DNA of 64,000 bases from an uncultured Dokdonia sp. (GTDB lineage: Bacteria; Bacteroidota; Bacteroidia; Flavobacteriales; Flavobacteriaceae), in contig NZ_CANMDS010000002.1 in NCBI RefSeq assembly GCF_947496725.1, positions 558,001 through 622,000 of the forward strand, in the 5' to 3' direction. Shown in pieces: positions 2,340-61,914 of this stretch; positions within the stretch are counted from its first letter, which is position 1, and each line of letters starts with the position of its first letter. Position numbers and translations under genes: made by a program. The notes beneath the pieces were generated by a model that was not told the origin of the DNA, did no database searches, and was given only the letters and a program-made list of their open reading frames with translations.

Positions 2340-2353
2340 TAATGTTGATAGTT

Positions 2354-2371
2354 ACGCTTTCGCGAAAGCGT
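2354..2371. repeat. Palindrome copy 1 (full 16-mer), intergenic
   Basis: ACGCTTTCGCGAAAGCGT between the convergent cvpA and SulP stops. Symmetry extends to 22 bp (2352-2373), the longest copy in the window. It could fold into an 11-bp stem, but no T-run follows. Confidence 0.95.
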
Positions 2372-2393
2372 AATTACACCCCACATCATCTAT

Positions 2394-4271
2394 TTAATAT
2401 CTGTCTTTTACCTGAGTGTTAAGAGAATTGATGCACTCTTCAAAAGTGTCATAAACCTCTGTTTCTGGTATTAACTCAGGGATGATTTTAATACGTTCTA
2501 GCATATACTTAGGCTGTTTTCTAAGGCCTACAATATGCACATTAATTCCGCCTTGGTTAAGTTGGAGAATCGTGTCTTCTATCGCATATACACCAGACTG
2601 ATCTACATAAGGAACACGCCCCATACGCAAGATAACATCTGATGCTGTTGCAGGTATTTGCTTAGTAAGTGCAGAAAAGTCACTCGTATACCCAAAGAAT
2701 AACGGCCCACGAAGGTGCTTTATAAATACCTCCTCCTTGAGATGATCTGGAAAAATAAGTTCGTCACTCCATAATACTTTATTCTTTTCGGCGGCGCGTA
2801 GGTCAAAAACTTTAGACTGTCTAGCGGTAAAGTCACCCATCTTCTTCATAAACATAAGACACGATAACACAAGACCAATTCCTACTGCAGCCACTAGGTC
2901 CCACACTACAGATAGCACAAGAACCACAAGCATTATAATCACCTCAGAACTTAGTTTAATAGGTCCCATCTTTAAATCCTTAGGAAGGTTAGGGATGGCT
3001 TTAAGACCTTTGTAATCCATCACTCCTATACCTACGGTAATAAGTATACCTGCAAGTACTGCTGCTGGTATTTGTGAAGCGATAGGGCCTAGGGCTAGGA
3101 GTATAAAAAGGAGTAATACACCAGCAATCATTCCTGATAACTTGGTTTTACCACCAGAGTTAATATTTACTACCGTCCTTATGGTTGCACCTGCTCCAGG
3201 AATCCCGCCAAAGAAGGAAGCGATGGTATTTCCTATACCTTGACCTATAAGTTCTTTGTTAGGCTTATGTCTAGTCTTCGTCATATTATCTGCTACAACA
3301 GAGGTAAGCAGCGAATCTATTGCTCCAAGAAACGAAAGCGACAGTGCCGTGAGTATATATGGAGATATGATGCTAAACTTAAAATCGGTAATGATAGAAA
3401 GCTTAGGTACGGGAAACCCACTTGGGATTTCTTGAATTGCTCGGTATTCAAAAGGTGCAACATATGCTACTCCAGACACTACGAGCAGAGCGACAAGCGT
3501 ACTAGGTACAACGGTTGTTATGCGTTTAAAACCGTAAATAATAAAAATCGTGGCAAGCGCTAGCGCAAGCTCTATCCAGTTTATGTTTTGCAAGGCGCGT
3601 CCCATTACTTTAAAAGTACCTACCACCCCAGAAGAAGATGCTTTTGCAAGAGTTACGGCCTCCTTGTAAATGTCGGTATCGTCTGTAAGTTTTGCTCTGC
3701 GTATGGTTTCTTCAAAGTTTTCTAAAACCAAAAGACCTTCACCTGCTTCGTCTTGTAAAATCTTATCGAGCACAATTTCTTGCGCCTGTGGTTTAAAACT
3801 ATCTACATAACTTTCATCTTGATTAGGATAATACCCGACAGCTGGTAAAAGTTGCGTGATAAGAATCATCACACCTATAGCGGTCATAAATCCAGATACA
3901 ACAGGGTAGGGGATGTATTTTATGTATTTACCTATGCCCATTACTCCCAGTACAATCTGGAAGAGACCTGCAAGTAAAAATACGGTGAGTATAGCCGGTA
4001 GTGCCTTATCTACATCGCCATCAAAAGTTGCAATAATACCCGCGATAACCACCATACTCACTGCGGTCATAGGAGCAGTAGGTCCCGAGATTTGAGTAGG
4101 AGTTCCTCCAAAAAGTGCAGCAAAAAATGCTATAAAAATAGCACCATATAATCCGGCACTTGGTCCAAGACCAGAAGACACACCAAAGGCGAGTGCTAGT
4201 GGTAAGGCTACAATACCTGCTGTAATTCCTCCAAAGGCATCGCCTTTAAGGTGTTTAAAGAAGTTTTTCAT
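2394..4271 (-). CDS. SulP family anion transporter with STAS domain
   Basis: 625-residue inner-membrane transporter of the SulP/SLC26 family. The N-terminal transport domain starts with the family pattern KGDAFGGITAGIVALPLALAFG and contains about a dozen hydrophobic helices up to residue 480. Residues 490-610 form a cytosolic STAS domain. A hydrophilic insert (about residues 150-215) between early helices is longer than in the neighbouring paralog. SulP members carry sulfate, bicarbonate or dicarboxylates; substrate cannot be read from sequence. Proximity to a beta-carbonic anhydrase and a second SulP gene argues for bicarbonate. A hairpin terminator at 4321-4347 separates it from the anhydrase gene, so it may have its own promoter. 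Confidence 0.93.
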   Translation of the reverse strand: MKNFFKHLKGDAFGGITAGIVALPLALAFGVSSGLGPSAGLYGAIFIAFFAALFGGTPTQISGPTAPMTAVSMVVIAGIIATFDGDVDKALPAILTVFLLAGLFQIVLGVMGIGKYIKYIPYPVVSGFMTAIGVMILITQLLPAVGYYPNQDESYVDSFKPQAQEIVLDKILQDEAGEGLLVLENFEETIRRAKLTDDTDIYKEAVTLAKASSSGVVGTFKVMGRALQNINWIELALALATIFIIYGFKRITTVVPSTLVALLVVSGVAYVAPFEYRAIQEIPSGFPVPKLSIITDFKFSIISPYILTALSLSFLGAIDSLLTSVVADNMTKTRHKPNKELIGQGIGNTIASFFGGIPGAGATIRTVVNINSGGKTKLSGMIAGVLLLFILLALGPIASQIPAAVLAGILITVGIGVMDYKGLKAIPNLPKDLKMGPIKLSSEVIIMLVVLVLSVVWDLVAAVGIGLVLSCLMFMKKMGDFTARQSKVFDLRAAEKNKVLWSDELIFPDHLKEEVFIKHLRGPLFFGYTSDFSALTKQIPATASDVILRMGRVPYVDQSGVYAIEDTILQLNQGGINVHIVGLRKQPKYMLERIKIIPELIPETEVYDTFEECINSLNTQVKDRY

Positions 4272-4314
4272 AATGGTTAGGTTGGTGTCAAAATAGAAAG
4301 TTAATTCTTTGCAT

Positions 4315-4347
4315 AAAAATAGGGTGGCTTCTTAACGGAACCACCCT
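4315..4347 (-). terminator. Intrinsic terminator after carbonic anhydrase gene
   Basis: AGGGTGG (4321-4327) pairs with CCACCCT (4341-4347), with additional inner pairing. On the minus strand the hairpin is followed by ATTTTT. It would end the upstream SulP/carbonic anhydrase transcript before the 625-residue SulP gene. Confidence 0.75.
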
Positions 4348-4395
4348 ACTAATTTAACATTTTAGTTTGTATGAAGCGTATACTGTTATTAGTTA

Positions 4396-4411
4396 CGCTT
4401 TCGCGAAAGCG
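4396..4411. repeat. Palindrome copy 2 (full 16-mer), intergenic
   Basis: CGCTTTCGCGAAAGCG lies 6 bp beyond the stop of the carbonic anhydrase gene and before its terminator, so it is transcribed in the 3' UTR. Confidence 0.95.
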
Positions 4412-4417
4412 GTTTTA

Positions 4418-6727: not shown

Positions 6728-6737
6728 TTTCGCGAAA
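6728..6737. repeat. Palindrome copy 3 (10-bp core, one arm decayed), intergenic
   Basis: The left arm CGCTTTCGCG is intact; the right arm reads AAAAGAG instead of AAAGCG. It lies between the SulP start and the small membrane-protein gene. Confidence 0.85.
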
Positions 6738-7216: not shown

Positions 7217-7981
7217 CTACAACGCTCTTACATCTGTCGTAGGAATCCAGCCAGTTTTACCATCTGCTAGTTTTATCTTGTTCCAGTTATCTACTGTTTC
7301 AAGAATCATCACCTTAGTTCCTTCGTGTAGAATAAAAGCTTGTGTGCTTTTTAAGTTTGGCTCGCTCTTTACTTCAGAAGTTGCAGCAAATACGATAGCT
7401 GGGTTGTCTTTAGAAATTTTCGCGAAAGCGTTATAAGCAAACACAAGTGATAAGAGGGCAAGAAGCAAACTTGTCACCGAACTCACAAAAAATAAACGTT
7501 TCTTGCCAGAGGCTACAGAAAAGTAGTAGCTTATAAATAGTATTACAAATAAGAATACAAATGCGACTGTAGCATATGCCCAGCCGTCTGTAGTCATAAT
7601 ATTGACAATGCTGTTAAACCATTTTTGAAGTGTGTTTTCTGGCAATGGTGTTATGGCATCTATCTTCATCTTATCTGCAAATGAAGCATTGTTTTTTATG
7701 TCACTATCTGCTGGAGCAAGTTGCTTTGCTTTCTCGTAATAGTAAATGCTAGGCGCTACATTATTTAGTTTAAAATGTGCATTTGCAAGGTTATAGTATA
7801 CGGCGGCGCTTTCTTGATTGCTGTCTAATATCTTTTTATAATCATCTATAGCTTCTTGATACCTGCCCTCTGCATAGTGTGCATTTGCAGTTTCAAAATA
7901 TTGCTCTGGAGTTTGAGCTATAACAGGTGTAACTGCAAGCATAAGTACAGTTACCGCGATGTATGTAATCAGGTCTCTCAT
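7217..7981 (-). CDS. batE: BatE: TPR protein with C-terminal SH3-like domain
   Basis: Last gene of the Bat operon. 254 residues: signal peptide 1-22, TPR repeats about 24-100 (EQYFETANAHYAEGRYQEAI), two membrane helices near 135-157 and 163-187, then a bacterial SH3-like domain (about 190-252; VMILETVDNWNKIKLADGKTGWI). Bat proteins are associated with oxidative-stress tolerance and envelope function in Bacteroidetes; the mechanism is unknown. One base separates it from batD. A palindrome copy with only its right arm intact encodes NAFAKI just after the second helix. Confidence 0.92.
   Translation of the reverse strand: MRDLITYIAVTVLMLAVTPVIAQTPEQYFETANAHYAEGRYQEAIDDYKKILDSNQESAAVYYNLANAHFKLNNVAPSIYYYEKAKQLAPADSDIKNNASFADKMKIDAITPLPENTLQKWFNSIVNIMTTDGWAYATVAFVFLFVILFISYYFSVASGKKRLFFVSSVTSLLLALLSLVFAYNAFAKISKDNPAIVFAATSEVKSEPNLKSTQAFILHEGTKVMILETVDNWNKIKLADGKTGWIPTTDVRAL
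7418..7427. repeat. Palindrome copy 4 (10-bp core), inside batE
   Basis: TTTCGCGAAA with the right arm GCG kept (to 7430) and the left arm lost. Encodes AFAK of batE. Confidence 0.85.
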
Positions 7982-9749: not shown

Positions 9750-10639
9750 TACCAGTCTTTCTCCGTTTTTACTTTTGCACCTTTTACCTTCTGCGCATTT
9801 ATCTTTTCTTGGGTTTTTTTCTCTTGGTCTTGCATCGCTTTTAGTAAACTTTGCACTTGTTGAGGAGATAATTGCCCTTGCTTAGGTTGCGGTGGTGGTT
9901 GTTTTTTATCTTCTTCACCCTCGCCACCATCTTGCTTTTTGTCTTTGTCTTTAGGGTCTCCTTTATCATCTTCTTTCTGCTCTCCCTCGTCTTCTTTTTC
10001 TTCGCCCTTATCGTCTGTTTCTTCCTTGTCGCCGTCTTCTCCCTCTTTTTTATCTCCTTCTCCTTTGTCGTCTTTTTTATTTTCGTCTTTGTCCTGGTTT
10101 TCGTCTTGGTTTTCTTGGTCGTCATTATCGCTACCACCACCGCCATTGTTTTCCTTTTCTTTTTTGGCAAGTTGTAAATTATAGCGTGTTTCTTCGTCTG
10201 TAGGATCTGCGCGTAGGGCATTTTTATAGGCTTCTACAGCTCCATCCCATTGTTCTTGTTGAAAGAGTGCATTACCTAGGTTGTGATATGCTTTGTGCTT
10301 TTCTTTTTTAGTTTGGGCAACAGATGCTGCTCTTGCTAGCGCACTTGTGCTTTCTTCCCACTTTTTGTTTTTGTAATAATTGTTTCCTGCATTATATTTT
10401 GCAGGTACACTCTCTGGTGTGAGCGAGATGGCTGCTCTTAGATTTGATTCCGCTTTCGCGAAAGCGTCAAAATCTACAACGCCACCTTCTTGGTTTATCA
10501 TTGCTTCCGTGCCTTCTAGAATATACTCTCTAGCCTCACCCGCCAGCGGATTTTGAAGTGTCTTTCCTTCTTTTGCTTTTTCTTGAGCTATGGCAGTAAA
10601 AGCTAGTGTGGCGAGCGCCAGTGTAAGTAACTTTTTCAT
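9749..10639 (-). CDS. batC: BatC: TPR protein with long acidic/lysine low-complexity tail
   Basis: 296 residues: signal peptide 1-18, TPR repeats about 35-160, then about 85 residues composed almost only of Asp, Glu, Lys, Gly, Asn and Gln (about 165-250), and a Gln/Lys-rich end with LSPQQVQSLLKAMQDQEKKTQEKI. The highly charged tail is typical of BatC and creates long spurious ORFs in other frames. A full palindrome encodes DAFAKA at about residues 58-63 before the first TPR. The gene lies 3 bp after batB and overlaps batD by one base. Confidence 0.93.
   Translation of the reverse strand: MKKLLTLALATLAFTAIAQEKAKEGKTLQNPLAGEAREYILEGTEAMINQEGGVVDFDAFAKAESNLRAAISLTPESVPAKYNAGNNYYKNKKWEESTSALARAASVAQTKKEKHKAYHNLGNALFQQEQWDGAVEAYKNALRADPTDEETRYNLQLAKKEKENNGGGGSDNDDQENQDENQDKDENKKDDKGEGDKKEGEDGDKEETDDKGEEKEDEGEQKEDDKGDPKDKDKKQDGGEGEEDKKQPPPQPKQGQLSPQQVQSLLKAMQDQEKKTQEKINAQKVKGAKVKTEKDW
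10451..10466. repeat. Palindrome copy 5 (full 16-mer), inside batC
   Basis: CGCTTTCGCGAAAGCG encodes DAFAKA in the linker between the signal peptide region and the first TPR. Confidence 0.95.
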
Positions 10640-12710: not shown

Positions 12711-14374
12711 TACTTCTCTTCTTCTTTTGCTTGCAGTTCTACACTTTGCATCACGCGCTCTGCGATTTGTTTACCATAAGGATCTTCATCGTGCCAGCTT
12801 ATAAATAATTGCTGAATCACACTTTCTGACTGAAAAGTTAAAAATGCATACTCACCAGAGTCCATCATTTCCTTTTCTTCGTCTATAATTTGAGTTCCTT
12901 TTCCAAAGGTTTTAAGACCTTCAGCACCATTAGGCGTTTTGAACTTTTCATTCTTCACCACATCTGCAGAGAAGCCGTTTTGCTCAAACATCGCAAGTTG
13001 ATTTGCAATGAGCTGCTCTACTTTTACTTCGGCGTTTTCTGGAAATTTGAATTGAAATACGAGTATAGAAACATTTGCTGGTACTGTAGACCACGCAAAT
13101 GAGGTTGCCTCCATTTGCCCTTGCGCCTCTGGTGGTAATGCCACTTCTTGTCTTGTAAGAACCTTTGGTGTACTTACAATCATAGATGGCGCTCCATACT
13201 CACTGGTAATCCAAGTACCTTCGGCAAGCTCACGGGTCATATTTCCGAAAACAAAATCTTTAACCTCACTATACCCCTTAACAACTATACCTACGGTGGT
13301 TGCTACAAGTAAGATGGCCAGAACACCACCTATTGCGGTAAGCCATAGTTTTCTTTTACGCTTTCGCGAAAGCGCTTCTCTATAATCCTCCTGCTTCATA
13401 AGTTCTTCTACAGTAGGAGGTGGTAGTGCTTCTTTAGTTTCTTTTACTATTTCTTCTACACTAAGACGGTCTGCTTGCGCCTTACCCTCTGGCGGATTTA
13501 CACGTGCAAATTTTATAAGGTCTGCACGTTTAAAAATATCTTTAAGCTTTACAATAGTCTCCCTGCTGAAGTCAATGTGACCACTGTCGCGCTCCATCTC
13601 AAGACGGGCAATGAGCTCATCTGTTGTGCTCTCCATAGCACGATCATATACCTTCTCATCATAGTAGCGACGTATGGCATCTGTAAGTACAGTGTAGTAC
13701 TCTTTATATTTTGCTTGAGCGATATAATCTTCTTGATCTAGTGCGTTGAGTGTTGCAATAGCTTGCTCAAAAGGAGGCACATATTTTTCTGCCTCTTTTT
13801 GTTTTTTATGACGACGTAGTAAGAACCATAAAAACAAGGCGATGGCAATAAGTACTGGGATGATCCATAACAGGTACTTCCACCACTTGCTATAGTCTCT
13901 AGGTAACTCTATAATAGGTTTAATATCATAAAGACCTTGGTTTACAGTGTCTAGTACAACATTGTTTACTTCTACTAGAAAAGTATCTGTCTCTACAGTT
14001 TTAGTCCCTATGATTATTTTTTGCTTTGGGATGACATAGCGACCACTATCAAACTGTGTTAAACCATATCTCTTTATAAGCTTTACTCTTGCAGATGTCG
14101 AGCTTGCGGTGTCAATCTTATAACTTTCTATAACCTCAAGAGGATTAAAAGTTTGGCCCTCTGGAAAAACCACCGCCTCACCATCATTTGCAAGAACTTC
14201 AATCTTGTAATTAATTTGTTGCCCTATAAGAATACTTGTAGAATCTATGGTGGCACGCACATCATCTTGAGCTTGAGACGATGTGGCAAAAAGAAAGCAA
14301 ATCAAGAAAAACACAAACAAGGCAGACTTAGATATGCCAGCTGTATTAAAGTTATGTTGTCTTGAGGTATTCAT
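12710..14374 (-). CDS. BatD-like membrane protein (second BatD paralog of the operon)
   Basis: I choose the ATG at 14374 (MNTSRQHNF). The longer frame to 14413 begins at GTG and would overlap the DUF58 gene. This gives 554 residues: signal peptide ending near AQ at about 35, a periplasmic domain with BatD-like start (VRATIDSTSILIGQQINYKIEV), a membrane helix (WWKYLLWIIPVLIAIALFLWF), a cytosolic linker, a second helix (LWLTAIGGVLAILLVATTVG) and a C-terminal domain of unknown type. A full palindrome encodes LSRKR just before the second helix. The order moxR, DUF58, BatD-like, batA is usual in Bacteroidetes. Confidence 0.85.
   Translation of the reverse strand: MNTSRQHNFNTAGISKSALFVFFLICFLFATSSQAQDDVRATIDSTSILIGQQINYKIEVLANDGEAVVFPEGQTFNPLEVIESYKIDTASSTSARVKLIKRYGLTQFDSGRYVIPKQKIIIGTKTVETDTFLVEVNNVVLDTVNQGLYDIKPIIELPRDYSKWWKYLLWIIPVLIAIALFLWFLLRRHKKQKEAEKYVPPFEQAIATLNALDQEDYIAQAKYKEYYTVLTDAIRRYYDEKVYDRAMESTTDELIARLEMERDSGHIDFSRETIVKLKDIFKRADLIKFARVNPPEGKAQADRLSVEEIVKETKEALPPPTVEELMKQEDYREALSRKRKRKLWLTAIGGVLAILLVATTVGIVVKGYSEVKDFVFGNMTRELAEGTWITSEYGAPSMIVSTPKVLTRQEVALPPEAQGQMEATSFAWSTVPANVSILVFQFKFPENAEVKVEQLIANQLAMFEQNGFSADVVKNEKFKTPNGAEGLKTFGKGTQIIDEEKEMMDSGEYAFLTFQSESVIQQLFISWHDEDPYGKQIAERVMQSVELQAKEEEK
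13359..13374. repeat. Palindrome copy 6 (full 16-mer), inside the BatD-like gene
   Basis: CGCTTTCGCGAAAGCG encodes ALSRKR at the cytosolic edge of the second membrane helix. Confidence 0.95.
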
Positions 14375-16503: not shown

Positions 16504-17370
16504 ATGCAATTTTCAAGAATAATTCAAGGCTGTATGACCTGGGGCGTTTGGGGCAAGCAATTTAATGAACGCCAAATGGTTGAGACCATACATCACTGCC
16601 TTGAGCAAGGTATTACCACCTTTGACCACGCAGATATTTACGGAGATTATACGACAGAGGGTGAGTGGGGTAGCTCTTTCGCGAAAGCGAACATCCCTAG
16701 AGAAACCGTACAAATTATAAGCAAGTGCGGTATCCAGATGATGGGTGACAACAGGCCAGAAAACACCATAAAACATTACCAGTACGACAAAGATTACATC
16801 ATAGCCAGCGCCGAAAGGTCTCTTAAAGAGCTGCAAACAGAGTATCTTGATTTATTCTTATTACATAGACCAAGTCCCCTGCTTGCTCCAGATGAGGTAG
16901 CGGCAGCAGTGAGCCATTTAAAAGAACAGGGGAAAATTAAAAACTTTGGACTTTCTAACTTTACGGCTTCACAAACAGCACTTGTGGCATCACGTGTGGC
17001 AGTGAGTGCAAACCAGCTCGAAATCTCCATAACAGAGCGCAGCGCCCTAGATGATGGGAGTCTAGACTATATGATGACTAATGGGATCACACCTATGAGT
17101 TGGAGTCCGCTAGGATCTGTTTTTAGAGAAGAGACACCGCAGAGTGATCGCATTAAAAAAGCGCTAGAGCCGTTATGCGAAAAGTATAATGCCACACAAG
17201 ATCAATTATTACTAGCCTGGTTGCTCAAGCACCCAGCGGGTATACACCCAGTTATAGGGACCACAACTGCGAGCCGCATTACAAATGCTGTGCTGGCAGA
17301 AAAAATAGCATTAAGCCTTAAAGATTGGTTTACCATCTTAGAAGCTAGCGTAGGAGAAGAAGTAGCATAA
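16504..17370 (+). CDS. Aldo/keto reductase family oxidoreductase
   Basis: 288-residue NADPH-dependent reductase of the aldo/keto reductase superfamily, YdhF-like subgroup. The catalytic tetrad is visible: Asp41 and Tyr46 in FDHADIYG, Lys74 in ISKCG, His121 in LFLLHRP. The cofactor-binding end has TTTASRI. The substrate is not predictable. Eleven bases separate it from the next dehydrogenase gene, so the two are probably co-transcribed. A partly decayed palindrome encodes SSFAKA near residues 57-62. Confidence 0.93.
   Translation: MQFSRIIQGCMTWGVWGKQFNERQMVETIHHCLEQGITTFDHADIYGDYTTEGEWGSSFAKANIPRETVQIISKCGIQMMGDNRPENTIKHYQYDKDYIIASAERSLKELQTEYLDLFLLHRPSPLLAPDEVAAAVSHLKEQGKIKNFGLSNFTASQTALVASRVAVSANQLEISITERSALDDGSLDYMMTNGITPMSWSPLGSVFREETPQSDRIKKALEPLCEKYNATQDQLLLAWLLKHPAGIHPVIGTTTASRITNAVLAEKIALSLKDWFTILEASVGEEVA
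16676..16687. repeat. Palindrome copy 7 (12 bp), inside the aldo/keto reductase gene
   Basis: CTTTCGCGAAAG with the right arm continuing CG; the left arm reads TAGCT. Encodes SFAKA. Confidence 0.88.
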
Positions 17371-18156: not shown

Positions 18157-19293
18157 ATGATTAATAAACGACTTCTTGTAAAAAATCTTCTCGCTCACAA
18201 TGACGAGAACAGTTTTTATGACAAGAAGCGTAAGATTGACATTAGCAATAAGGAGGGCAAAGCAAAATTTTTAAAACATATCTGTGCGCTGTCTAATAGC
18301 AACCCAAAAAACAATTCGTACATCGTTATAGGGGTAGATGATGGGGAAAATGATATTATGGGCGTGCCGTTTTTTGATGATAGTAAGTTGCAAAACCTCA
18401 TAAACGCATATCTAGATAACCCGCCTATTATCTCTTATGAGAACATACCATTTCCTAACCTTCCGGCAGATAAGGTGGTGGGCCTTGTAACCATTAGAGC
18501 ACAAGATAAACTTACAGCTTTACGTCGCAATATTTGGAAATACTGGGGAGGTACAGTCTTTTTTAGAGATGGCAGTATCTCTATGCCTAAGGTCTTTAAG
18601 TCTGATATAGTAGATGTAAACAGTGACATTGTTGCTGCAATAGAGAGACACGCAAAAAATAGTATTAAACTCACACTAGACGGTGTGATGGATTTTGTAA
18701 ATCATCGTCATAAAGATAGGGATAGCACATATAAAGTCTTTAAAGAGCAGTTTGTACTGTGCTGGGCAGGAGTAAAAAAAGTGGTTAAGGGTGAGACTTA
18801 TTACTCAAGAGTAGATATAGAGCTTATTAATGAGCAGGTAAAACTATTTTACTCTTCGCTGGACGAGGTTTCAATTACCTATGATGAAGATTGTTTTAAG
18901 ATTTTAGAGTATGTGCATCTCGGGGTACAAGAGCAGTTTAAATATTACCCACTAGAAGAGGTTGAGATACGCTTTCGCGAAAGCGGAACCTACACCATTC
19001 ATACAAATTTGGTGTTTGAGCCACCTCAGGTAGATAGAAAGACGTTGTATCATATTTTTAATAATAACAATGTTATTTTTTATAAGCTTAAACGTGGTAT
19101 AGCGCTCAATCAAGGTGAGTGGAAGGATTTATATAATCTATCAAACACATATTTAATTTGTTATCTCAACGGTTTTGATAGTGCAATGCAAAAACTAGTA
19201 GAGCTCAAACCTTTTATGAAAAAGATAAGAGGAGGTGCCTACGGTAGATATCGGGAGACAATGCGTATTTTGAGAAAGGTGAGGTATGAATAA
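18157..19293 (+). CDS. AlbA_2 (Schlafen-like ATP-binding) domain protein
   Basis: 378 residues. The N-terminal 170 residues fit the AlbA_2 domain: an N-terminal stretch that marks a bond of about 30 residues, then FLKHICALSNSNPKNNSYIVIGVDDG with the IGV-D-G core near 58-63. The C-terminal 200 residues are not recognised (IELINEQVKLFYSSLDEV, then a Tyr- and Lys-rich end). AlbA_2 domains occur in transcription regulators and in some defence proteins; no helicase, nuclease or HTH partner is seen here, so I assign no function. A palindrome encodes RFRESG near residue 272. Confidence 0.8.
   Translation: MINKRLLVKNLLAHNDENSFYDKKRKIDISNKEGKAKFLKHICALSNSNPKNNSYIVIGVDDGENDIMGVPFFDDSKLQNLINAYLDNPPIISYENIPFPNLPADKVVGLVTIRAQDKLTALRRNIWKYWGGTVFFRDGSISMPKVFKSDIVDVNSDIVAAIERHAKNSIKLTLDGVMDFVNHRHKDRDSTYKVFKEQFVLCWAGVKKVVKGETYYSRVDIELINEQVKLFYSSLDEVSITYDEDCFKILEYVHLGVQEQFKYYPLEEVEIRFRESGTYTIHTNLVFEPPQVDRKTLYHIFNNNNVIFYKLKRGIALNQGEWKDLYNLSNTYLICYLNGFDSAMQKLVELKPFMKKIRGGAYGRYRETMRILRKVRYE
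18970..18985. repeat. Palindrome copy 8 (full 16-mer), inside the AlbA_2 gene
   Basis: CGCTTTCGCGAAAGCG encodes RFRES, a different frame from the AFAKA copies. Confidence 0.95.
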
Positions 19294-21345: not shown

Positions 21346-21935
21346 TGAGTAATCGAATAAAAAACGTAGCAGAAGAGATCATAAGTGATGAGTGGGCAAC
21401 GCTAAAAAAAGTAACCTACAGTTATCAAAACCAAGACCAATCTTGGAGCGATGTAAAGCGCGAGGTATATGACAGAGGCCACGGAGCCTGTGCCTTGCTT
21501 TATAATGTAAAAAAGCAAACGGTCATTCTCATAAAACAGTTTAGACTACCTGCATATCTTGCTGGAGACAATGGTTTTTTAACAGAAGTGCCTGCCGGTA
21601 TTATAGAAGACGAGGCGCCAGAGCAAGCCATTATACGTGAGATAGAGGAGGAGACCGGTTATGTTATACCAGCACTTACTAGTGTGGGTGATATTTTTAC
21701 CTCTCCTGGAGCGGTAACAGAGCGCATTTTTCTATTTGTAGCACCTTATGATGATGCTCAAAAAGTAACGGATGGTGGCGGTCTAGATAGTGAAAACGAA
21801 GATATTGAGGTGGTTGAGTACGCTTTCGCGAAAGCGTTACAAGACGTAAAAAAAGGTGTTATTAAAGATGCCAAAACAATTATCTTATTACAGCACCTGG
21901 CACTCTCTGGTGTGATGAAAACATCCAATTTGTAA
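21345..21935 (+). CDS. NUDIX hydrolase, NudK-like
   Basis: 196 residues resembling GDP-mannose pyrophosphatase/ADP-ribose pyrophosphatase enzymes. The Nudix box G-x5-E-x7-REIEEETG begins at Gly85, and the preceding VILIKQFRLPAYL and following SPGAVTERIFLFVA segments fit NudK. It would hydrolyse a nucleoside-diphosphate sugar in the cytosol. It overlaps the histidine kinase stop by 1 bp. A full palindrome encodes YAFAKAL near residues 159-165 in the C-terminal helix, at the normal position without changing family length. Confidence 0.92.
   Translation: MSNRIKNVAEEIISDEWATLKKVTYSYQNQDQSWSDVKREVYDRGHGACALLYNVKKQTVILIKQFRLPAYLAGDNGFLTEVPAGIIEDEAPEQAIIREIEEETGYVIPALTSVGDIFTSPGAVTERIFLFVAPYDDAQKVTDGGGLDSENEDIEVVEYAFAKALQDVKKGVIKDAKTIILLQHLALSGVMKTSNL
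21821..21836. repeat. Palindrome copy 9 (full 16-mer), inside the NUDIX gene
   Basis: CGCTTTCGCGAAAGCG encodes AFAKA in the C-terminal helix of the hydrolase. Confidence 0.95.
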
Positions 21936-23879: not shown

Positions 23880-23895
23880 CGCTTTCGCGAAAGCG
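23880..23895. repeat. Palindrome copy 10 (full 16-mer), divergent intergenic
   Basis: CGCTTTCGCGAAAGCG in the shared upstream region of greA (-) and the lipoprotein gene (+), 17 bp before the latter's ATG. Confidence 0.95.
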
Positions 23896-39985: not shown

Positions 39986-41521
39986 ATGAAAAAATTACGA
40001 CTTATACTAGGTGACCAGCTCAATCATAAACACTCTTGGTATCAAGAGCAGGACGATGAGGTGGTGTACTTTATGGCAGAAATGCGCCAAGAAACAGACT
40101 ATGTAAAACATCATATTCAAAAGGTGGTTGCCTTTTTTATGGCTATGCGCGAGTTTGCAAGCTGGCTACAAGAGCGAGGTCATAAGATCGTTTATTACCA
40201 GCTAGATGATGCTCGTAACACACAAAGTCTTACAGAAAATCTTGAACAGCTTATAGCCCAGTATGATATTGAGCAGTTTGAGTATCAGTTACCAGACGAG
40301 TATAGACTGGATGAGTTATTAGTACGCTTTCGCGAAAGCGTAAACATTCCCGTACAATCTTGCGACACAGAGCATTTTATGAGTTCGCGCACAGATTTGC
40401 AAGAGTTCTTTAAAGGGAAGAAGCAATTTACAATGGAATACTTCTACCGTATGATGCGCAAGAGGTATGACATTATGATGATAAATGACAAAGATCCAGA
40501 AGGCGGAAAGTGGAATTTTGACCACAGTAACCGCAATAAGTGGAAGGGTGAGACCCTCATCCCACACGAGCGTGGTTTTAGAAAAGATGCACGAGAGATT
40601 GTTGAGCTACTAGAAAAAGAAGGAGTAAAAACCATAGGCCGCGTTACCGAAAAACACTTTAACTGGCCCACTAGTAGAGCAGATGGACTTTCTGTGTTGA
40701 GATATTTTTGTGAGAACCTGTTGGTGCATTTTGGCGATTATCAGGACGCTATGGATCCAGACCAAGCATATCTGTATCATAGTAGATTGAGCTTTGCGAT
40801 GAATAGTAAACTCCTAGATCCTCAAGAAGTAATTGAAACGGTTATAGACTACCGGAGAGACCATAGCGATGATATTTCTATAAGTCAGGTAGAGGGATTT
40901 GTAAGACAGATATTAGGCTGGAGAGAGTATATGAGAGGAATGTACTGGATGCAAATGCCAGAATTTGCTACCGTAAACACGCTAGAAAATACTAATGATT
41001 TACCAGATTTTTACTGGACGGGTAAAACTAAGATGAACTGCTTGAGCTGCAGTATAAATAATAGTCTTGATAATGCCTATGCACACCACATACAGCGACT
41101 TATGGTGACTGGTAATTATGCACTGCTTACAATGTGTGATCCATCACAGGTAGATGAGTGGTATTTGGGTATTTACATAGATGCAATAGAGTGGGTAGAA
41201 ATTACAAACACAAGAGGAATGTCACAATGGGCAGATGGCGGAAAGATTGCTACAAAACCCTATGTGTCAAGCGGTAGTTATATTAATAAAATGTCTAATT
41301 ATTGTAAGAGTTGTCATTACAAAGTGAGTAAGAAAACAGGAGAAGATGCCTGCCCTTTCAACGCTTTGTATTGGAATTTCTTAAGTGAGAAGCGTGCACA
41401 TTTTGAAAACAATAATAGAATGAATATGATGCTAAGCCTTCTTAATAAAATGGATAAGAAGACCTTGCAAGCACACCAAGAACGAGCGCAAGATATTATA
41501 GAGCATCCAGAGAATTATTGA
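39986..41521 (+). CDS. FeS-type (6-4) photolyase (PhrB/FeS-BCP family)
   Basis: 511 residues of the bacterial iron-sulfur photolyase/cryptochrome group. Four cysteines at 352, 440, 443 and 456 reproduce the spacing (88, 3, 13) of the 4Fe-4S ligands known in Agrobacterium PhrB. The start [11 protein letters not shown] and the block [22 protein letters not shown] are family hallmarks. Expected cofactors: FAD, a ribolumazine-type antenna and 4Fe-4S; role: repair of 6-4 photoproducts. A full palindrome encodes RFRESV at 114-119. It starts at the base after the cry-DASH stop. Confidence 0.94.
40325..40340. repeat. Palindrome copy 16 (full 16-mer), inside the FeS photolyase gene
   Basis: CGCTTTCGCGAAAGCG encodes RFRES. 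Confidence 0.95.
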
Positions 41522-43416: not shown

Positions 43417-43432
43417 CGCTTTCGCGAAAGCG
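43417..43432. repeat. Palindrome copy 17 (full 16-mer), 5' UTR
   Basis: CGCTTTCGCGAAAGCG between the predicted promoter and the ATG of the DUF2452 gene. Confidence 0.95.
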
Positions 43433-44454: not shown

Positions 44455-44470
44455 CGCTTTCGCGAAAGCG
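44455..44470. repeat. Palindrome copy 18 (full 16-mer), convergent intergenic
   Basis: CGCTTTCGCGAAAGCG between the msrA stop and the M20 peptidase stop. Confidence 0.95.
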
Positions 44471-44473: not shown

Positions 44474-45802
44474 TTATCTTCTCTCATTTATGAGTCTGTA
44501 AATTAATAGGGCGGTACGTTTAGTAAGCATCTCTATGGTGTTTATGTATACCGTTTCATTTGGCGTGTGTGCTCCTGTTCCCATTGTGCCTAAACCGTCA
44601 AGACAAGCCACATATTCTGCGACAAAAGAGGTGTCTGCAGCACCACGTTTTCCAGGGTCGTATGCAGCCACAGCTGGCCCTCCCATATCGAGGCTTACTT
44701 GACTTAATTTTTCTAAAAGCGCATAATTTTGAGGAGTAGGCTGCATTGCTGGATAACTATCTTCAAACTCAACTACAGCGCTTGTTTGCGGTAAATTATT
44801 TGCAACAATGGCTCTCATTTTATCACGAGCTTCTTCTTTTTGCTCTTCAGATATAAAGCGTAGGCCACCTTGTACGTATGCAGTTTGTGCTACTACATTT
44901 CCTTTGCCAAAGATGCTTCCCTTACTTTGTTTTGCTTCAAGATCCATTTTTGTGCCTCCCAGCATCATACCAGGATTAAAGGATAGTAACTCTGGACCTC
45001 TTACGTCGTTATAAAAACCGTTGAGAATACGTGCAAGTTCAAAATTTGCTCCCGCACCTACGCTTTCGCGAAAAATTCCACTTGAGTGTGCTCTCTTTCC
45101 TGTAACGGTTACATTCCAGTTTGAAGAACCTCTTCGGGCTACGGTTGCATTATCAAAACCTGTTGAAGTTTCAAAACCAAGGGCAATATCTGAGCTCTTT
45201 GCTGCGTCTATAAGATCCTTACGACTTATAGTGAGCGGTTTTCCTGTGCTTTCTTCATCTCCAGTAAAGGCTACTGTGATTTGTGCACTGTCTAGCATCC
45301 CTGCTTCTCTTAGAGCTTTGAGCGCATAAAGCACCACCACGTTACCACCTTTCATATCATTTGCTCCGGGACCTTTTGCTACGGTGTCGTTTATCATTTC
45401 AAATTTTTGAAACTCGCTGTCTTCTTCAAAAACGGTATCAAGATGACCTATAAGTAGTAGCCGTTTACCTTTTGTGCCCTCTGTGGAGGCAAAGAGGTGT
45501 CCTGCACGGTCCATTTCTGTGGGCATATCAATCCACTTTGTGTTAAAGCCTATGTCTGTAAATGCGCTAGAAAAGCGATTACCTACTTCTTTCACTCCTT
45601 TTACATTTAGAGTTCCGCTATTTATGTTTACCACCTCTTCTAGAAATGCGATACTCTCTGCCGAGTTTTTTTCTACTAGGCTAAGTATGCGTTGTTCCTC
45701 CTTTGAGAGATTTGTATTAGTCTGGGCTGTGAGGGTTAACGCTTTCGCGAAAGCAAAAAAAATAAAAACAGCCGTGTATATAATAGAATTGCGGTTACTC
45801 AT
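44474..45802 (-). CDS. Secreted M20 family metallopeptidase (CPG2-like)
   Basis: 442 residues: signal peptide 1-27, then an M20 exopeptidase resembling glutamate carboxypeptidase. Metal ligands are visible in LLIGHLDTV (His), GANDMKGG (Asp), GDEES (Glu-Glu catalytic pair) and GAHTPNE (His). The dimerisation domain lies in the middle. It would cleave small peptides or folyl-type substrates in the periplasm. Two palindrome copies fall in this gene: one encodes FAFAKAL inside the signal peptide, placing a Lys at the end of the hydrophobic core, and a half-decayed one encodes FRESV. Confidence 0.92.
   Translation of the reverse strand: MSNRNSIIYTAVFIFFAFAKALTLTAQTNTNLSKEEQRILSLVEKNSAESIAFLEEVVNINSGTLNVKGVKEVGNRFSSAFTDIGFNTKWIDMPTEMDRAGHLFASTEGTKGKRLLLIGHLDTVFEEDSEFQKFEMINDTVAKGPGANDMKGGNVVVLYALKALREAGMLDSAQITVAFTGDEESTGKPLTISRKDLIDAAKSSDIALGFETSTGFDNATVARRGSSNWNVTVTGKRAHSSGIFRESVGAGANFELARILNGFYNDVRGPELLSFNPGMMLGGTKMDLEAKQSKGSIFGKGNVVAQTAYVQGGLRFISEEQKEEARDKMRAIVANNLPQTSAVVEFEDSYPAMQPTPQNYALLEKLSQVSLDMGGPAVAAYDPGKRGAADTSFVAEYVACLDGLGTMGTGAHTPNETVYINTIEMLTKRTALLIYRLINERR
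45061..45073. repeat. Palindrome copy 19 (10-bp core, one arm decayed), inside the M20 gene
   Basis: CGCTTTCGCGAAA followed by AATT; the right arm is lost. Encodes FRES. Confidence 0.85.
45741..45754. repeat. Palindrome copy 20 (14 bp), inside the M20 signal peptide
   Basis: GCTTTCGCGAAAGC encodes FAFAKA within the signal peptide. Confidence 0.92.
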
Positions 45803-46130: not shown

Positions 46131-46140
46131 TTTCGCGAAA
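46131..46140. repeat. Palindrome copy 21 (10-bp core, one arm decayed), intergenic
   Basis: ACGCTTTCGCGAAATTC: the left arm is complete, the right arm is lost. It lies between the candidate ncRNA terminator and the tRNA-Asn promoter. Confidence 0.85.
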
Positions 46141-51215: not shown

Positions 51216-51231
51216 CGCTTTCGCGAAAGCG
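51216..51231. repeat. Palindrome copy 22 (full 16-mer), intergenic
   Basis: CGCTTTCGCGAAAGCG between thioredoxin and the clpP-like gene. Confidence 0.95.
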
Positions 51232-52637: not shown

Positions 52638-52653
52638 CGCTTTCGCGAAAGCG
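52638..52653. repeat. Palindrome copy 23 (full 16-mer), intergenic
   Basis: CGCTTTCGCGAAAGCG lies 16 bp beyond the ald stop. Confidence 0.95.
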
Positions 52654-54226: not shown

Positions 54227-57106
54227 TTAACCCACTATGTTTACAATCTTACCAGGCACAACAATCACCTTTTTTGGTGTGCGGCCATCAAGATACATTT
54301 GTGTTTTTTCGTGTGCCATCACGGTTTTTTCTATCTCATCCTTACTCATATCTAATGGTAGCTCAAGGGTGAATTTCATTTTACCATTAAAAGAGATAGG
54401 ATAGTTTTTTGCACTTTCTACAAGGTGCTTTTCTTCAAAAACCGGGAAGCCAGCTTCAGAAATACTTTCGGTGTGACCCAGCTTACTCCATAACTCCTCT
54501 GCAATGTGTGGTGCATAAGGTGCAATAAGAATAGCAAGTGGCTCAAGAACTTCTTGTGAAGTGCATTTTTGAGCACTTAGCTCATTTGCTGCAATCATAA
54601 ATGTAGATACAGAGGTATTAAAAGAGAAATTCTCAATATCCTCTTGTACCTTTTTTATGGTTTTATGTAGCGTTTTTAAGCTGTCCTTACTTGCTGGTGT
54701 ATCTGTAACATTAAAAGTAGCCTCTGCGCCATTATGATATAACTTCCAGAATTTCTTTAAGAAGTTATGTACGCCCGTAATACCTGCCGTGTTCCAAGGT
54801 TTTGCTTGTTCGAGCGGCCCTAAAAACATCTCGTACATACGTAAGGTGTCTGCTCCATACTGCTCACAAATCTCATCTGGATTTACGACGTTGTACTTAG
54901 ACTTAGACATTTTTTCAACCTCGCGGCCTACTTTGTAAACCCCATCCTCAAGGATAAACTCTGCATCTTTAAATTCTGGTCTCCATTTTTTGAAAGCTTC
55001 TACATCTAGCTCATCAGATGCATTTACAAATGCTACTGGAGCGTGTATAGGTTGTACCTGCTTGTCTTTACTTAATCCTAGTGACAAGAATGTATTGCTA
55101 TTCTCCTCTCTGTAAACAAAAGCACTCGTCCCCAAGATCATCCCTTGGTTAATCATCTTTTGGAAAGGCTCATCTACAGATACGTGACCTCTATCTTTTA
55201 AGAATTTTACCCAAAAACGCGAGTATAATAAGTGACCGGTACCGTGCTCAGATCCTCCTATGTATAAATCTACATTACCCCAGTAGTCCATCGCTTCTTT
55301 TGAGGCAAAGACAGCATCACGCTGTGCTTTTTCCATATACCTAAAGAAGTACCAGCTACTACCTGCCCAGCCTGGCATTGTGTTTAATTCTAATGGGTAA
55401 ATTCCATTATCCTCGGAGTTCTCGACTGCGCTTGAACGAACAAGGTCATTTGAAACAACTTTATTAGTCTTACTATCCCACGCCCATACATCTGCACGGC
55501 CTAGTGGTGGTTCTCCATCTTCTGTAGGGAGGTATTTTTCTATTTCTGGCAGCTCCAGTGGTAAGTGTTCCACATCAATCATATGTGGCATCCCGTCTTT
55601 GTAATATACTGGGAAAGGTTCTCCCCAATAACGCTGGCGGCTAAAAACCGCATCACGTAATCTGTAATTTGTTTTACCAGAACCTGCACCTACTTTTTCT
55701 AACTCATAGATGGCAAGTTTTACTGCTTTCTTATACTTTAATCCGTTTAAGAAATCAGAATTTGCAATGACGGTAGCTGCCTTATCTGCAAAGGCTTCTT
55801 CAGAAATATCTACCCCTTCAAAAACATTAGGAATAGCAATCCCAAAATGCTTTGCAAAGTCATAATCACGCTGGTCACCACAAGGTACTGCCATTACCGC
55901 ACCTGTACCATAACCGGCAAGTACATAGTCACCTATCCAGATAGGTATAGGCTCTTTTGTAAATGGGTGCTCTGCATAGGCTCCTGTAAATGCTCCCGTG
56001 ATTGTTTTTACATCTGCCATACGCTCGCGCTCAGAACGCTTTGCGGTAGAGGCGATGTATGCATCTACTTTTTCTTTTTGCTCTGGAGTAGTAATCTCTT
56101 GTACAAGATCTAGCTCTGGAGCAAGTGTCATAAAACTTACACCAAAAATAGTGTCAGGGCGTGTGGTAAATACTTCTATCTTTTTGTCGTGATCTTTTAA
56201 GTTAAAAGATACAGTAGCTCCTACAGATTTACCTATCCAGTTGCGTTGTGTTTCTTTTATAGACTCACTCCAGTCTAAGCTGTCAAGCCCTTGTAGTAAA
56301 CGCTCTGCATAAGCAGAGATGCGCATAGACCACTGTGTCATTTTCTTGCGCACTACAGTATGCCCTCCACGTTCTGAAACGCCGTTTACAATCTCATCAT
56401 TTGCCAGAACAGTACCTAGTGCTGGACACCAGTTTACTTCTGTTTCGGCAAGGTAGGTGAGGCGGTATTGTAGGAGTATGACTTGTTTTTCGTTTTCAGA
56501 AAAGTCGTTCCATTGTGCTGCGGTAAATGGCTCAATGTTATCATCACAAGCAGCGTTTATATTTCCATTTCCTTCTTTCGCGAAAGCGGAAACTAGAGTC
56601 TCTATACCTTCTGCTTTATTTGTGTCGTAATTGTACCACGAGTTAAATAGCTCTGTAAAAATCCACTGTGTCCATTTGTAATACTCAGGATTTGAGGTGC
56701 GTACCTCGCGACTCCAGTCAAAAGAGAATCCTATTTTATCAAGCTGGTTACGATACCCGGCAATCTCATTACCTTGGTTATCTACACCGCCCTCTATATT
56801 AACCTTTGTAGTTACGGCAGGGTGCTGTCCCGTTTGTATTGCATATTGCTCTGCTGGAAGTCCAAAAGAGTCATACCCCTGCGGGTGCAATACATTAAAG
56901 CCTTTAAGGCGCTTGTAACGCGCATACACATCACTGGCAATATACCCTAGCGGGTGCCCCACGTGCAGTCCTGCTCCAGATGGATAAGGAAACATATCTA
57001 GCACATAATATTTAGGCTTGTCACTGTTGTTTGAGGCGTTAAAGGTGCCCTTATCTGCCCAGTATTTTTGCCATTTGGCCTCTATCTCGTTAAAGTGATA
57101 TTTCAT
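54227..57106 (-). CDS. leuS: Leucine--tRNA ligase
   Basis: Class I synthetase. I place the start at the ATG at 57106 (MKYHFNEIEAKWQKYWADKG), giving 959 residues. The frame continues to an upstream ATG at 57148, but the added 14 residues (MSTLSRKRIYNTLT) are encoded by a palindrome copy and do not belong to the family. Motifs: HVGHPLG (HIGH) and KMSKSKYNVV (KMSKS), editing domain between. Two unusual insertions are visible: one around a palindrome (SAFAKEGNGN) and one around CGACTGCGCTTGA (VRSSAVENSEDNG). Confidence 0.95.
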   Translation of the reverse strand: MKYHFNEIEAKWQKYWADKGTFNASNNSDKPKYYVLDMFPYPSGAGLHVGHPLGYIASDVYARYKRLKGFNVLHPQGYDSFGLPAEQYAIQTGQHPAVTTKVNIEGGVDNQGNEIAGYRNQLDKIGFSFDWSREVRTSNPEYYKWTQWIFTELFNSWYNYDTNKAEGIETLVSAFAKEGNGNINAACDDNIEPFTAAQWNDFSENEKQVILLQYRLTYLAETEVNWCPALGTVLANDEIVNGVSERGGHTVVRKKMTQWSMRISAYAERLLQGLDSLDWSESIKETQRNWIGKSVGATVSFNLKDHDKKIEVFTTRPDTIFGVSFMTLAPELDLVQEITTPEQKEKVDAYIASTAKRSERERMADVKTITGAFTGAYAEHPFTKEPIPIWIGDYVLAGYGTGAVMAVPCGDQRDYDFAKHFGIAIPNVFEGVDISEEAFADKAATVIANSDFLNGLKYKKAVKLAIYELEKVGAGSGKTNYRLRDAVFSRQRYWGEPFPVYYKDGMPHMIDVEHLPLELPEIEKYLPTEDGEPPLGRADVWAWDSKTNKVVSNDLVRSSAVENSEDNGIYPLELNTMPGWAGSSWYFFRYMEKAQRDAVFASKEAMDYWGNVDLYIGGSEHGTGHLLYSRFWVKFLKDRGHVSVDEPFQKMINQGMILGTSAFVYREENSNTFLSLGLSKDKQVQPIHAPVAFVNASDELDVEAFKKWRPEFKDAEFILEDGVYKVGREVEKMSKSKYNVVNPDEICEQYGADTLRMYEMFLGPLEQAKPWNTAGITGVHNFLKKFWKLYHNGAEATFNVTDTPASKDSLKTLHKTIKKVQEDIENFSFNTSVSTFMIAANELSAQKCTSQEVLEPLAILIAPYAPHIAEELWSKLGHTESISEAGFPVFEEKHLVESAKNYPISFNGKMKFTLELPLDMSKDEIEKTVMAHEKTQMYLDGRTPKKVIVVPGKIVNIVG
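55423..55435. repeat. CGACTGCGCTYGA motif, copy in leuS
   Basis: CGACTGCGCTTGA; the related copy at 78-90 reads CGACTGCGCTCGA. It lies in a leuS loop that appears longer than usual. Confidence 0.55.
56575..56586. repeat. Palindrome copy 24 (12 bp), inside leuS
   Basis: CTTTCGCGAAAG, right arm continuing CG; encodes SAFAKE. Confidence 0.88.
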
Positions 57107-57125: not shown

Positions 57126-57141
57126 CGCTTTCGCGAAAGCG
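57126..57141. repeat. Palindrome copy 25 (full 16-mer), leuS 5' leader
   Basis: CGCTTTCGCGAAAGCG, 20 bp upstream of the chosen leuS start; it creates the spurious N-terminal extension. Confidence 0.95.
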
Positions 57142-59317: not shown

Positions 59318-59327
59318 TTTCGCGAAA
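59318..59327. repeat. Palindrome copy 26 (10-bp core, one arm decayed), 3' UTR of ahcY
   Basis: CGCTTTCGCGAAAATG: the right arm is lost, but flanking AACATTTT (59303-59310) and AAAATGTT (59325-59332) form a second, offset inverted repeat. Confidence 0.85.
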
Positions 59328-59336
59328 ATGTTAAAT

Positions 59337-60883: not shown

Positions 60884-60931
60884 AGTATTTTTTTAGTAAA
60901 TTAGATTCGTCTAACAAAATAAAATCAAAAA

Positions 60932-61276
60932 ATGAGACTCAAAATTACACTATTATTTGCGTTTGTAATGCTAGCCGTTACAAATACTTATGCTGGATTT
61001 CCAGTACAGAGAACTGCAGTAGCAACAGTAAACGGGGTAACCCTTGCTGAGGAGGATACTACAGAGGTTCTTACATCACCTGCCGCTACTGCTGCAGACA
61101 AGCAAGTTGTTGCACTATTGCTATGGTTCTTCTTAGGACTTTTTGCAGCTCACAGATGGTATTTAGGAAGTCCAATAGGATGGAATATTCTATACATCCT
61201 TACGCTAGGAGGTTTAGGAATCTGGGCTATTGTAGATCTTATCGATCTAATCACAAAGAACTACCCAGGACTATAA
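60932..61276 (+). CDS. TM2 domain protein
   Basis: 114 residues: signal peptide 1-21, a short linker, then a TM2 domain (about 47-110) with two helices around the conserved turn FAAHRWYLGSPIGWNILYILTLGGLGIWAIVDLIDLI. Function unknown. A terminator with the stem AGCCTCTCA/TGAGAGGCT follows. Confidence 0.92.
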   Translation: MRLKITLLFAFVMLAVTNTYAGFPVQRTAVATVNGVTLAEEDTTEVLTSPAATAADKQVVALLLWFFLGLFAAHRWYLGSPIGWNILYILTLGGLGIWAIVDLIDLITKNYPGL

Positions 61277-61300
61277 TTTATAGTTTCTTTAAAAAAGTAA

Positions 61301-61328
61301 AGCCTCTCATTTTTGAGAGGCTTTTTTT
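61301..61328 (+). terminator. Terminator of the TM2 gene
   Basis: AGCCTCTCA (61301-61309), loop TTTT, TGAGAGGCT (61314-61322), then TTTTTT. Confidence 0.93.
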
Positions 61329-61351
61329 ATGAAGTATATATAAGCTCTAGT

Positions 61352-61822
61352 TTATATTTTTATCTGTCTGTCTATTTGCTGGTCTAGGGAGATAAAGGTT
61401 TCTGTACGAGAAACCCCGTCTATAGCTTGTATTTTCTTGTTAAGTAAGTTCATAAGATCCTCATTGTTTTTACAAAGAATCTTGATCAAAACAGACCAGT
61501 TACCTGTAGTGTAGTGACACTCTATTACCTCTGGTATATCTTTAAGTTGTCTTACGGCTCTTGCGTTATTTGCAGCGCGATCTAAGTGAACTCCTATAAA
61601 AGCCTGCGTGCGATAGCCTAGTACTTTTGGGTCTATAATAAATTTTGAACCTGCAATGAGTCCAGATTTTTCTAGTTTACGTAAACGCTGGTGTATTGCA
61701 GCACCAGAGATACCCACTTTACGAGCAATCTCAAGTATAGGTTTACGAGCATCTTCCATAAGCTGGCGCAAGATAATTTTATCTATACCATCTATAACCA
61801 GTTCGTCTTTAACTATTTTCAT
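61352..61822 (-). CDS. Lrp/AsnC family transcriptional regulator
   Basis: 156 residues: N-terminal helix-turn-helix (DKIILRQLMEDARKPILEIARKVGISGAAIHQRLRKLEKSGLI, about 14-56) and a RAM ligand-binding domain (TQAFIGVHLDRAANNARAVRQLKDIPEVIECHYTTGNWSVLIKI). Usually responds to amino acids. The saccharopine-dehydrogenase-like gene just upstream on the same strand is a possible target. Confidence 0.95.
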   Translation of the reverse strand: MKIVKDELVIDGIDKIILRQLMEDARKPILEIARKVGISGAAIHQRLRKLEKSGLIAGSKFIIDPKVLGYRTQAFIGVHLDRAANNARAVRQLKDIPEVIECHYTTGNWSVLIKILCKNNEDLMNLLNKKIQAIDGVSRTETFISLDQQIDRQIKI

Positions 61823-61898
61823 CGCTTGTGATTGTAAATTGAAAGAGAAAGATACGTAATAACTGGTAATGTGTAATTGAGTTGCGTGTTTTTTGTGA

Positions 61899-61914
61899 CG
61901 CTTTCGCGAAAGCG
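61899..61914. repeat. Palindrome copy 27 (full 16-mer), intergenic
   Basis: CGCTTTCGCGAAAGCG in the 97 bp between the saccharopine-dehydrogenase-like stop and the Lrp start. Confidence 0.95.

Follow-up and report, generated by a model that had tools for sequence, protein, structure and literature searches.

An abundant, evenly spaced palindrome in Dokdonia genomes and its possible role as a DNA-uptake signal

Introduction

What could keep one long palindrome at about a thousand places in a bacterial chromosome? The question is raised by a stretch of 64,000 nucleotides from an uncultured Dokdonia sp. of the family Flavobacteriaceae (G000:C2:558001-622000, hereafter the window), which belongs to a source genome, G000, of 3,291,590 bp in 121 contigs. 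The original prediction, made from the letters of the window, had reported 27 copies of the 10-mer TTTCGCGAAA, and had listed a DNA-uptake signal, a site for a nucleoid or segregation protein, a methylation target and a self-spreading repeat as possible roles. It had also remarked that no description of the motif was known, and our literature search, limited to open-licence full text judged by title and start of the abstract, likewise found none. In the present study, the 10-mer was counted together with the 14-mer GCTTTCGCGAAAGC and the 16-mer CGCTTTCGCGAAAGCG in the window, its genome, its relatives and phage contigs, and the possible roles were weighed against each other.

Results

Abundance in the window and the genome

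All 27 copies of the 10-mer were found where the original prediction had placed them, whereas 100 dinucleotide shuffles averaged 0.04 copies and never gave more than one. The recount also gave the same 17 copies with the full 16 bp and three further ones with 14 bp, i.e., at least 14 bp are retained in 20 of the 27, and the G+C content, assumed to be 38%, was measured as 38.6%. The window is not unusual in its genome: the whole-genome count that had been called for gave 1,045 10-mers, 905 14-mers and 711 16-mers, against 19, 0 and 0, respectively, for the reversed words. The abundance of the palindrome is thus confirmed as real and genome-wide, and the over-representation expected of DNA-uptake signals, namely the uptake signal sequence (USS) and the DNA uptake sequence (DUS), is found here. 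The 27 sites, each located by sequence match and without a strand, are as follows.

2355..2370, 16-bp palindrome, convergent intergenic
4396..4411, 16-bp palindrome, intergenic
6728..6737, 10-bp core, left half complete, intergenic
7418..7427, 10-bp core, right half complete, within the open reading frame (ORF) 7217-7981
10451..10466, 16-bp palindrome within an ORF
13359..13374, 16-bp palindrome within an ORF
16677..16686, 10-bp core within an ORF; full 16-mer at this place in the 95% relative G016 (by comparison)
18970..18985, 16-bp palindrome within an ORF
21821..21836, 16-bp palindrome within an ORF; single T>C in G016 (by comparison)
23880..23895, 16-bp palindrome, divergent intergenic; single C>A in G016 (by comparison)
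25387..25400, 14-bp form within a TonB-receptor gene; retained in G230, of another genus (by comparison)
32872..32887, 16-bp palindrome within an ORF of 2164 aa
33992..34007, 16-bp palindrome within a PcrB-family gene
36521..36534, 14-bp form within an ORF
38569..38584, 16-bp palindrome, intergenic; alignment gap in G003, G005, G007 and G008, where the spacer is shorter
40325..40340, 16-bp palindrome within a DPRP-family gene
43417..43432, 16-bp palindrome, intergenic
44455..44470, 16-bp palindrome, convergent intergenic
45064..45073, 10-bp core, left half complete, within a peptidase M20 gene
45741..45754, 14-bp form within a peptidase M20 gene
46131..46140, 10-bp core, left half complete, intergenic
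51216..51231, 16-bp palindrome, intergenic
52638..52653, 16-bp palindrome, intergenic
56576..56585, core within the leucyl-tRNA synthetase (LeuRS) gene, A-F-A-K frame; in genus g11 that loop holds the motif in a different frame, R-F-R-E-S (by comparison)
57126..57141, 16-bp palindrome at the annotated 5′ end of the LeuRS gene, probably intergenic (from homologue starts)
59318..59327, 10-bp core, left half complete, intergenic
61899..61914, 16-bp palindrome, intergenic; alignment gap in G005, G007 and G008, retained in G003

Placement and spacing

Sites are concentrated outside genes. A simple ORF caller places 12 of the 27 10-mers of the window in non-coding DNA, which makes up 10.5% of the bases (binomial p = 7e-6). 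The thirteen intergenic copies claimed originally are a fair count, as site 57129 joins these twelve: it stands where LeuRS is annotated to begin, and most LeuRS homologues align only from about residue 8-16. Elsewhere on the contig (G000:C2:1-400000), 53 of 115 14-mers are non-coding against 9.1% of bases. Among intergenic regions of at least 20 bp, the convergent ones are the densest (14 sites in 27 regions), with 11 sites in 42 divergent regions and 17 in 78 and 9 in 68 co-directional ones. About half of the sites lie within genes and use all frames, GCT-TTC-GCG-AAA being the commonest (31/19/15).

A copy about every 2.3 kb had been proposed; the regular spread holds, and the mean distance in 464 kb is a little wider, at 2.9 kb between 10-mers and 3.4 kb between 14-mers. 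The gaps between 14-mers have a coefficient of variation of 0.51, versus 0.99 for random placement, with none of 2,000 simulations as low. Only one gap is shorter than 500 bp, where 18 were expected, and the commonest gaps measure 2-3.5 kb. The complete relative G016 has 518 10-mers in 84 stretches of 20 kb, with a variance-to-mean ratio of 0.49 (p = 3e-5). Its 20-kb stretches hold 6.6 10-mers each near the GC-skew origin (about 0.68 Mb; 29 stretches) and 5.8 near the terminus (about 2.45 Mb; 18 stretches), without a strong excess near either. The checks on regularity and on origin or terminus bias suggested earlier thus gave gaps far more even than chance and no such bias; an origin or terminus function was rejected, and the even, unbiased chromosomal spread is the one expected of USS and DUS.

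Anatomy of the site

The consensus TTACGCTTTCGCGAAAGCGTAA was derived from 183 TCGCGA sites in 464 kb, among which its outer palindrome bases agree to 75-91%. Beyond the palindrome, the 5′ side of each strand is C-poor and G/T-rich (270 half-sites): C amounts to 1-12% at -3 to -19 from the 14-mer and then rises, to 12-23% beyond -28, and an excess of G over C is detectable out to about -27. Left and right flanks showed no complementarity beyond composition at the 30 positions tested without correction, of which positions 4, 5, 6 and 10 pair below expectation (lower tails about 0.006-0.03). Since the flanks are C-poor on each strand and unpaired, the two halves appear to be read independently, as in a protein site and not a hairpin; an RNA or cruciform stem was rejected on the same pairing result. 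At Hamming distances of 0, 1, 2, 3, 4 and 5 from the 16-mer stand 108, 30, 9, 18, 18 and 53 sites, respectively, and 26 of the 30 single mismatches fall on the two outermost bases. Outside the 10-mer, TCGCGA is not enriched (26 observed, about 61 expected from composition). The site looks like one read by a symmetric double-stranded-DNA-binding protein with a sharp threshold.

Conservation in relatives

G000 and G016 are 94.6% identical across 415 kb, alignments shorter than 1,000 bp or below 88% identity being dropped. All aligned sites considered, 146 of 152 are unchanged (140 of 146 among those with 60-bp aligned flanks), against 781 of 1,192 control 10-mers lying 30-120 bp away. The six altered sites are single substitutions without any core indel, and third-codon divergence is 0.34% in the cores versus 11.2% in the flanks. 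At 79% identity, 17 of 20 sites are retained versus 15 of 145 nearby control 10-mers; other comparisons at 76-79% gave 11/14, 9/12 and 9/12 against 14/103, 12/87 and 9/91 for controls (alignments below 150 bp dropped). At these distances, an alignment gap takes the place of site 38572 in all four relatives and of site 61902 in three of the four, the spacers being shorter there, and some intergenic gains and losses may be indels.

The variable loop of LeuRS carries the motif in 9 of 86 rows; the 77 without it include G230. The own genus of the window reads GCT TTC GCG AAA in the loop and g11 reads CGC TTT CGC GAA AGC, in another frame and with other residues, so that the two motifs are apparently of independent origin, at a tolerant spot.

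Distribution among genera

All 17 same-genus genomes searched carry the palindrome, with 138-704 16-mers each. In a survey of the family (397 genomes, 237 genera), 80 genomes had any 14-mer, and the count exceeded 19 in only six: the own genus contributed two of these (905 and 857), genus g11 three (578, 664 and 609) and genus g210 one (408). The motif is thus abundant in 3 of the 237 genera sampled. Across the phylum, 13 of 198 genomes had a match, namely G000 and twelve genomes bearing 1-4. Variants with another 4-bp centre, GCTTTNNNNAAAGC, reach at most 61 copies per genome outside the three motif genera (229 genomes), and a dialect of the relatives with a different centre was rejected because none is abundant there. 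The Olleya and Hyunsoonleella loci (L021, L085) have other repeated words, e.g., TCTCGATACA, TTCACTCGAA and GTTCTCGATA, perhaps another repeat of the family.

By LeuRS identity to the window, Dokdonia sinensis is the best-ranked named species (81%), and a 23-kb locus of it contains eight 10-mers; the uncultured isolate L018 (3-490-G) stands at 81% and contig L022, binned as Crocinitomix, at 82%. On these matches, the window probably belongs to Dokdonia. L022 has both the palindrome and a Dokdonia-clade LeuRS, and is probably misbinned. L018 is sister to the own genus on the LeuRS tree and shows no 10-mer in 22.9 kb. The tree has 85 rows: LeuRS ORFs of 850 aa or fewer were omitted (L112 and L113, split between stretches), as was L109 with its odd ORF, and L067 and L076 fell outside the 85 kept. 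It would require at least three changes of the motif label, with the own genus in one place, G230 beside Leeuwenhoekiella and g11 separate; we treat this as a lead from a single gene with support by the Shimodaira-Hasegawa-like approximate likelihood ratio test (SH-aLRT) only.

Phage contigs, islands and non-shared DNA

A scan of a viral collection for the 16-mer returned 41 stretches, with 11 contigs bearing at least two. Four phage contigs (L248, L251, L252 and L264) share two 10-mers whose distance is exactly 4,480 bp. Twenty phage ORFs from three contigs were searched against PHROG, which matched portal, major head and tape-measure proteins in L264, an integrase in L242, and terminase, portal and tail sheath in L254; virion proteins occur in all three and an integrase in one. 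The repeated places of the motif in phage contigs, seen in L254 and L271 also, might serve to assign a host.

In the DNA of G000 compared, the window included, the stretches that lack a G016 alignment (1,000 bp or longer, 88% identity or higher) contain 5 sites in 41.1 kb against 15 expected (p = 0.003). This count excludes 7.8 kb at the edge of a fetched stretch and 0.4 kb at another end, with which it becomes 6 sites in 49.2 kb (p 0.001). Scarcity in non-shared DNA, a property of USS and DUS, is thus seen in this one genome pair.

Small motif clusters in other genera sit in islands that blastn relates to each other in at least eight genomes, each from a different genus, as if the islands had been gained from a motif-bearing lineage. 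ORFs of one of them, L159, resemble metal-efflux, TolC-like and copper-oxidase proteins by eye from their translations. The islands L157-L164 and L172 (G118, G127, G141, G254, G376 and G386) carry few palindromes, four of them with a pair 933 bp apart.

As a separate observation, two giant ORFs, of 2164 aa (window 27055-33549) and 4343 aa (L181:2646-15677), have surroundings almost free of palindromes. The former lies within a 6.9-kb stretch without a counterpart in G016.

Discussion

Of the explanations weighed, a self-DNA uptake signal spread by transformation fits the palindrome best, and the chances that it is one appear to us evenly balanced. Uptake itself, its receptor and recombination as the maintaining force are all what we infer. 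Under this proposal, a sequence-specific double-stranded-DNA-binding protein, probably located in the cell envelope and forming a symmetric dimer, would bind TTACGCTTTCGCGAAAGCGTAA and the C-poor 5′ flanks on free DNA, and the binding would favor the import of fragments bearing the palindrome. Recombination of such fragments into the chromosome would restore lost copies and fix new ones (molecular drive), and the drive would maintain about one site per 3 kb wherever the DNA or the protein tolerates it. The original reading is partly supported: among the roles listed there, uptake is the one favored, in view of the even spacing, the excess outside genes, the copies in phage contigs, the scarcity in non-shared DNA and the lack of origin or terminus bias. 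Among the systems known to us, uptake signals maintained by transformation would predict most of this set.

USS and DUS have a core with preferred flanks, and the Dokdonia palindrome likewise. The USS of Pasteurellaceae and the DUS of Neisseriaceae resemble our motif in their very many, relatively even copies and their scarcity in non-shared DNA, and perhaps in their accumulation in prophages (PMC6776037, PMC7811141). There, USS are described as abundant, relatively even and sparser in non-shared segments, a pattern that drive can explain, with Maughan 2010 cited for this (PMC7811141), and nearly all prophages of Aggregatibacter and Haemophilus as accumulating USS, whereas phages above 150 kb, all likely lytic, are USS-poor (PMC6776037). 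Unlike USS and DUS, the Dokdonia motif is a perfect palindrome, of 16-22 bp, and occurs in Bacteroidota. We know of no pilus-based receptor of the USS or DUS type in that phylum.

Within Flavobacteriaceae, Riemerella columbina prefers its own DNA, and the commonest words of 7-10 bp listed for it are A- or T-rich (PMC7965970). In R. anatipestifer, transformation requires ComEC, DprA, ComF, RecA and four proteins without an assigned function, one of which is a DUF5689 protein whose gene adjoins that of an outer-membrane protein (PMC8459023). ComEC was present in all 16 genomes searched, the window's genome included, and DUF5689 in 33 of 34. The DUF5689 gene of G000 adjoins a gene for a predicted 925-aa outer-membrane protein (L122:1998-6208); judged by the DUF5689 match, the gene order and the translation, the two look like the R. 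anatipestifer transformation pair. The C-terminal type of DUF5689 is alike in the Dokdonia group, in g11 and also in genomes with few or no copies, and G230 has the other type.

Several considerations speak against an uptake signal. No receptor was found, ComEC and DUF5689 being present with and without the motif, and co-variation did not point to the DUF5689 C-terminal domain, the one candidate compared, as its type fails to track the motif. The uptake signals known to us lack symmetry and are tied to type IV pilus systems, and the palindromic form is unlike them. The host and life style of most motif-bearing phages are such as we infer. For the lower divergence near sites that uptake would predict, the picture was mixed. 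Third-codon divergence between G000 and G016 is lower near sites (paired p = 0.011 for gaps of 3.5-9 kb, 28 of 37; p = 0.048 for 2.5-9 kb, 47 of 79; gaps with too few third positions omitted), and three shifted controls were null. The gradient over all positions, however, gave p = 0.12 (51 of 79), its mean was slightly negative in three further genome pairs (6, 7 and 10 gaps; alignments below 400 bp dropped), and accessory genes in long gaps could produce it; its absence in these pairs led us to set it aside as proof of uptake. Furthermore, selection at each site, e.g., by an organizer protein, would explain the conservation equally well, and the even spacing too.

Such a chromosome-organizing site is the main rival. 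A nucleoid or condensin-type protein would act on about 1,000 palindromes about 3 kb apart, each under selection, which we consider rather unlikely: even spacing, deep positional conservation, a symmetric double-stranded motif with long flanks and uniformity around the chromosome are what it would give. The sites of Noc, ParB, MatP and SlmA are also palindromes for dimeric proteins; these, however, number in the tens and are biased to origin or terminus, unlike the roughly 1,000 unbiased copies in Dokdonia. An organizer also fits poorly with phage contigs bearing the motif at spacings of a few kilobases and with the few copies in DNA lacking a close counterpart. Abundance in three of 237 genera, with at least three label changes on one gene tree, points to a changeable preference more than to a core organizer. 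An extra ParB-family protein is absent, 15 of 16 genomes having one match regardless of motif; the remaining one, G141, has three, the second and third at G141:C1:2364602-2366734 and the third with internal stops. The ParB- or Noc-like segregation role suggested at the outset is disfavored by this and by the missing origin or terminus bias, and an extra ParB/Noc chromosome site was rejected, with no additional protein tracking the motif and nearly equal densities at origin and terminus. Rather unlikely, in our view, is also a chromosome "ruler", in which a dedicated double-stranded-DNA-binding protein would use the palindromes, about 1,000 at about 3 kb, to organize the entire chromosome without origin or terminus polarity, and phages would need sites for tolerance; we know of no counterpart. 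A bidirectional Chi-like site, at which a RecBCD- or AddAB-type nuclease would halt and the G/T-rich 5′ flanks would aid RecA loading, seems improbable. Chi is comparable in density and spread, and the keto-rich 5′ flank on both strands, the even spacing and the phage copies agree with such a site; known Chi sequences, however, are 5-8 nt long, asymmetric and read on one strand, and the intergenic excess and the 22-bp symmetry are left unexplained.

Equally improbable is a process like that behind cyanobacterial HIP1 (GCGATCGC), in which an orphan methyltransferase or a methylation-linked repair bias would act on the inner TCGCGA or the longer core. HIP1 is a highly iterated palindrome, and its mismatches at outer bases match the preponderance of outermost single mismatches here (PMC4390886). 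The Dokdonia motif, in contrast, is twice as long and evenly spaced at 3 kb, which a mutational process alone is not expected to yield, and its inner 6-mer alone is not enriched. A length of 16-22 bp far exceeds the methylase sites known to us; no methylase has been shown for the motif, no search having been made for one. Very improbable, finally, is a mobile palindromic repeat, such as the repetitive extragenic palindromic (REP) elements of REP-associated tyrosine transposases (RAYTs), or a transcription terminator. REP elements are short palindromes in many copies, and the palindrome itself, the intergenic excess, the highest density between convergent genes, the gaps at sites 38572 and 61902 and the Y1 transposases of genus g11 (G027, G281) point that way. 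Y1 genes also occur in three motif-poor genomes (G024, G031 and G071), and the Y1/RAYT search gave no match in the five own-genus genomes searched (G000, G016, G005, G007 and G003) or in G230. With this, and since the sites altered at 95% identity differ by one substitution each and cores are free of indels there, the self-spreading repeat of the original prediction is disfavored, some gaps at 76-79% identity notwithstanding. The unpaired flanks and the genic half of the sites suit neither a mobile repeat nor a terminator, and an intrinsic terminator was rejected because TTTT follows within 12 nt on 8 of 120 strand-sides at intergenic sites, versus 544 of 4,000 at random intergenic positions.

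If the palindrome is an uptake signal, it would be, to our knowledge and as far as our literature search goes, the first with a palindromic form and also the first in Bacteroidota. It could then serve as a probe for the DNA receptor of Flavobacteriaceae and mark the exchange of DNA among common marine bacteria, and molecular drive could be tested on an independent case. Otherwise, the palindrome points to a new genome-wide organizing protein. In addition, the motif is of help in following phages and possible transfer of genes from one genus to another.

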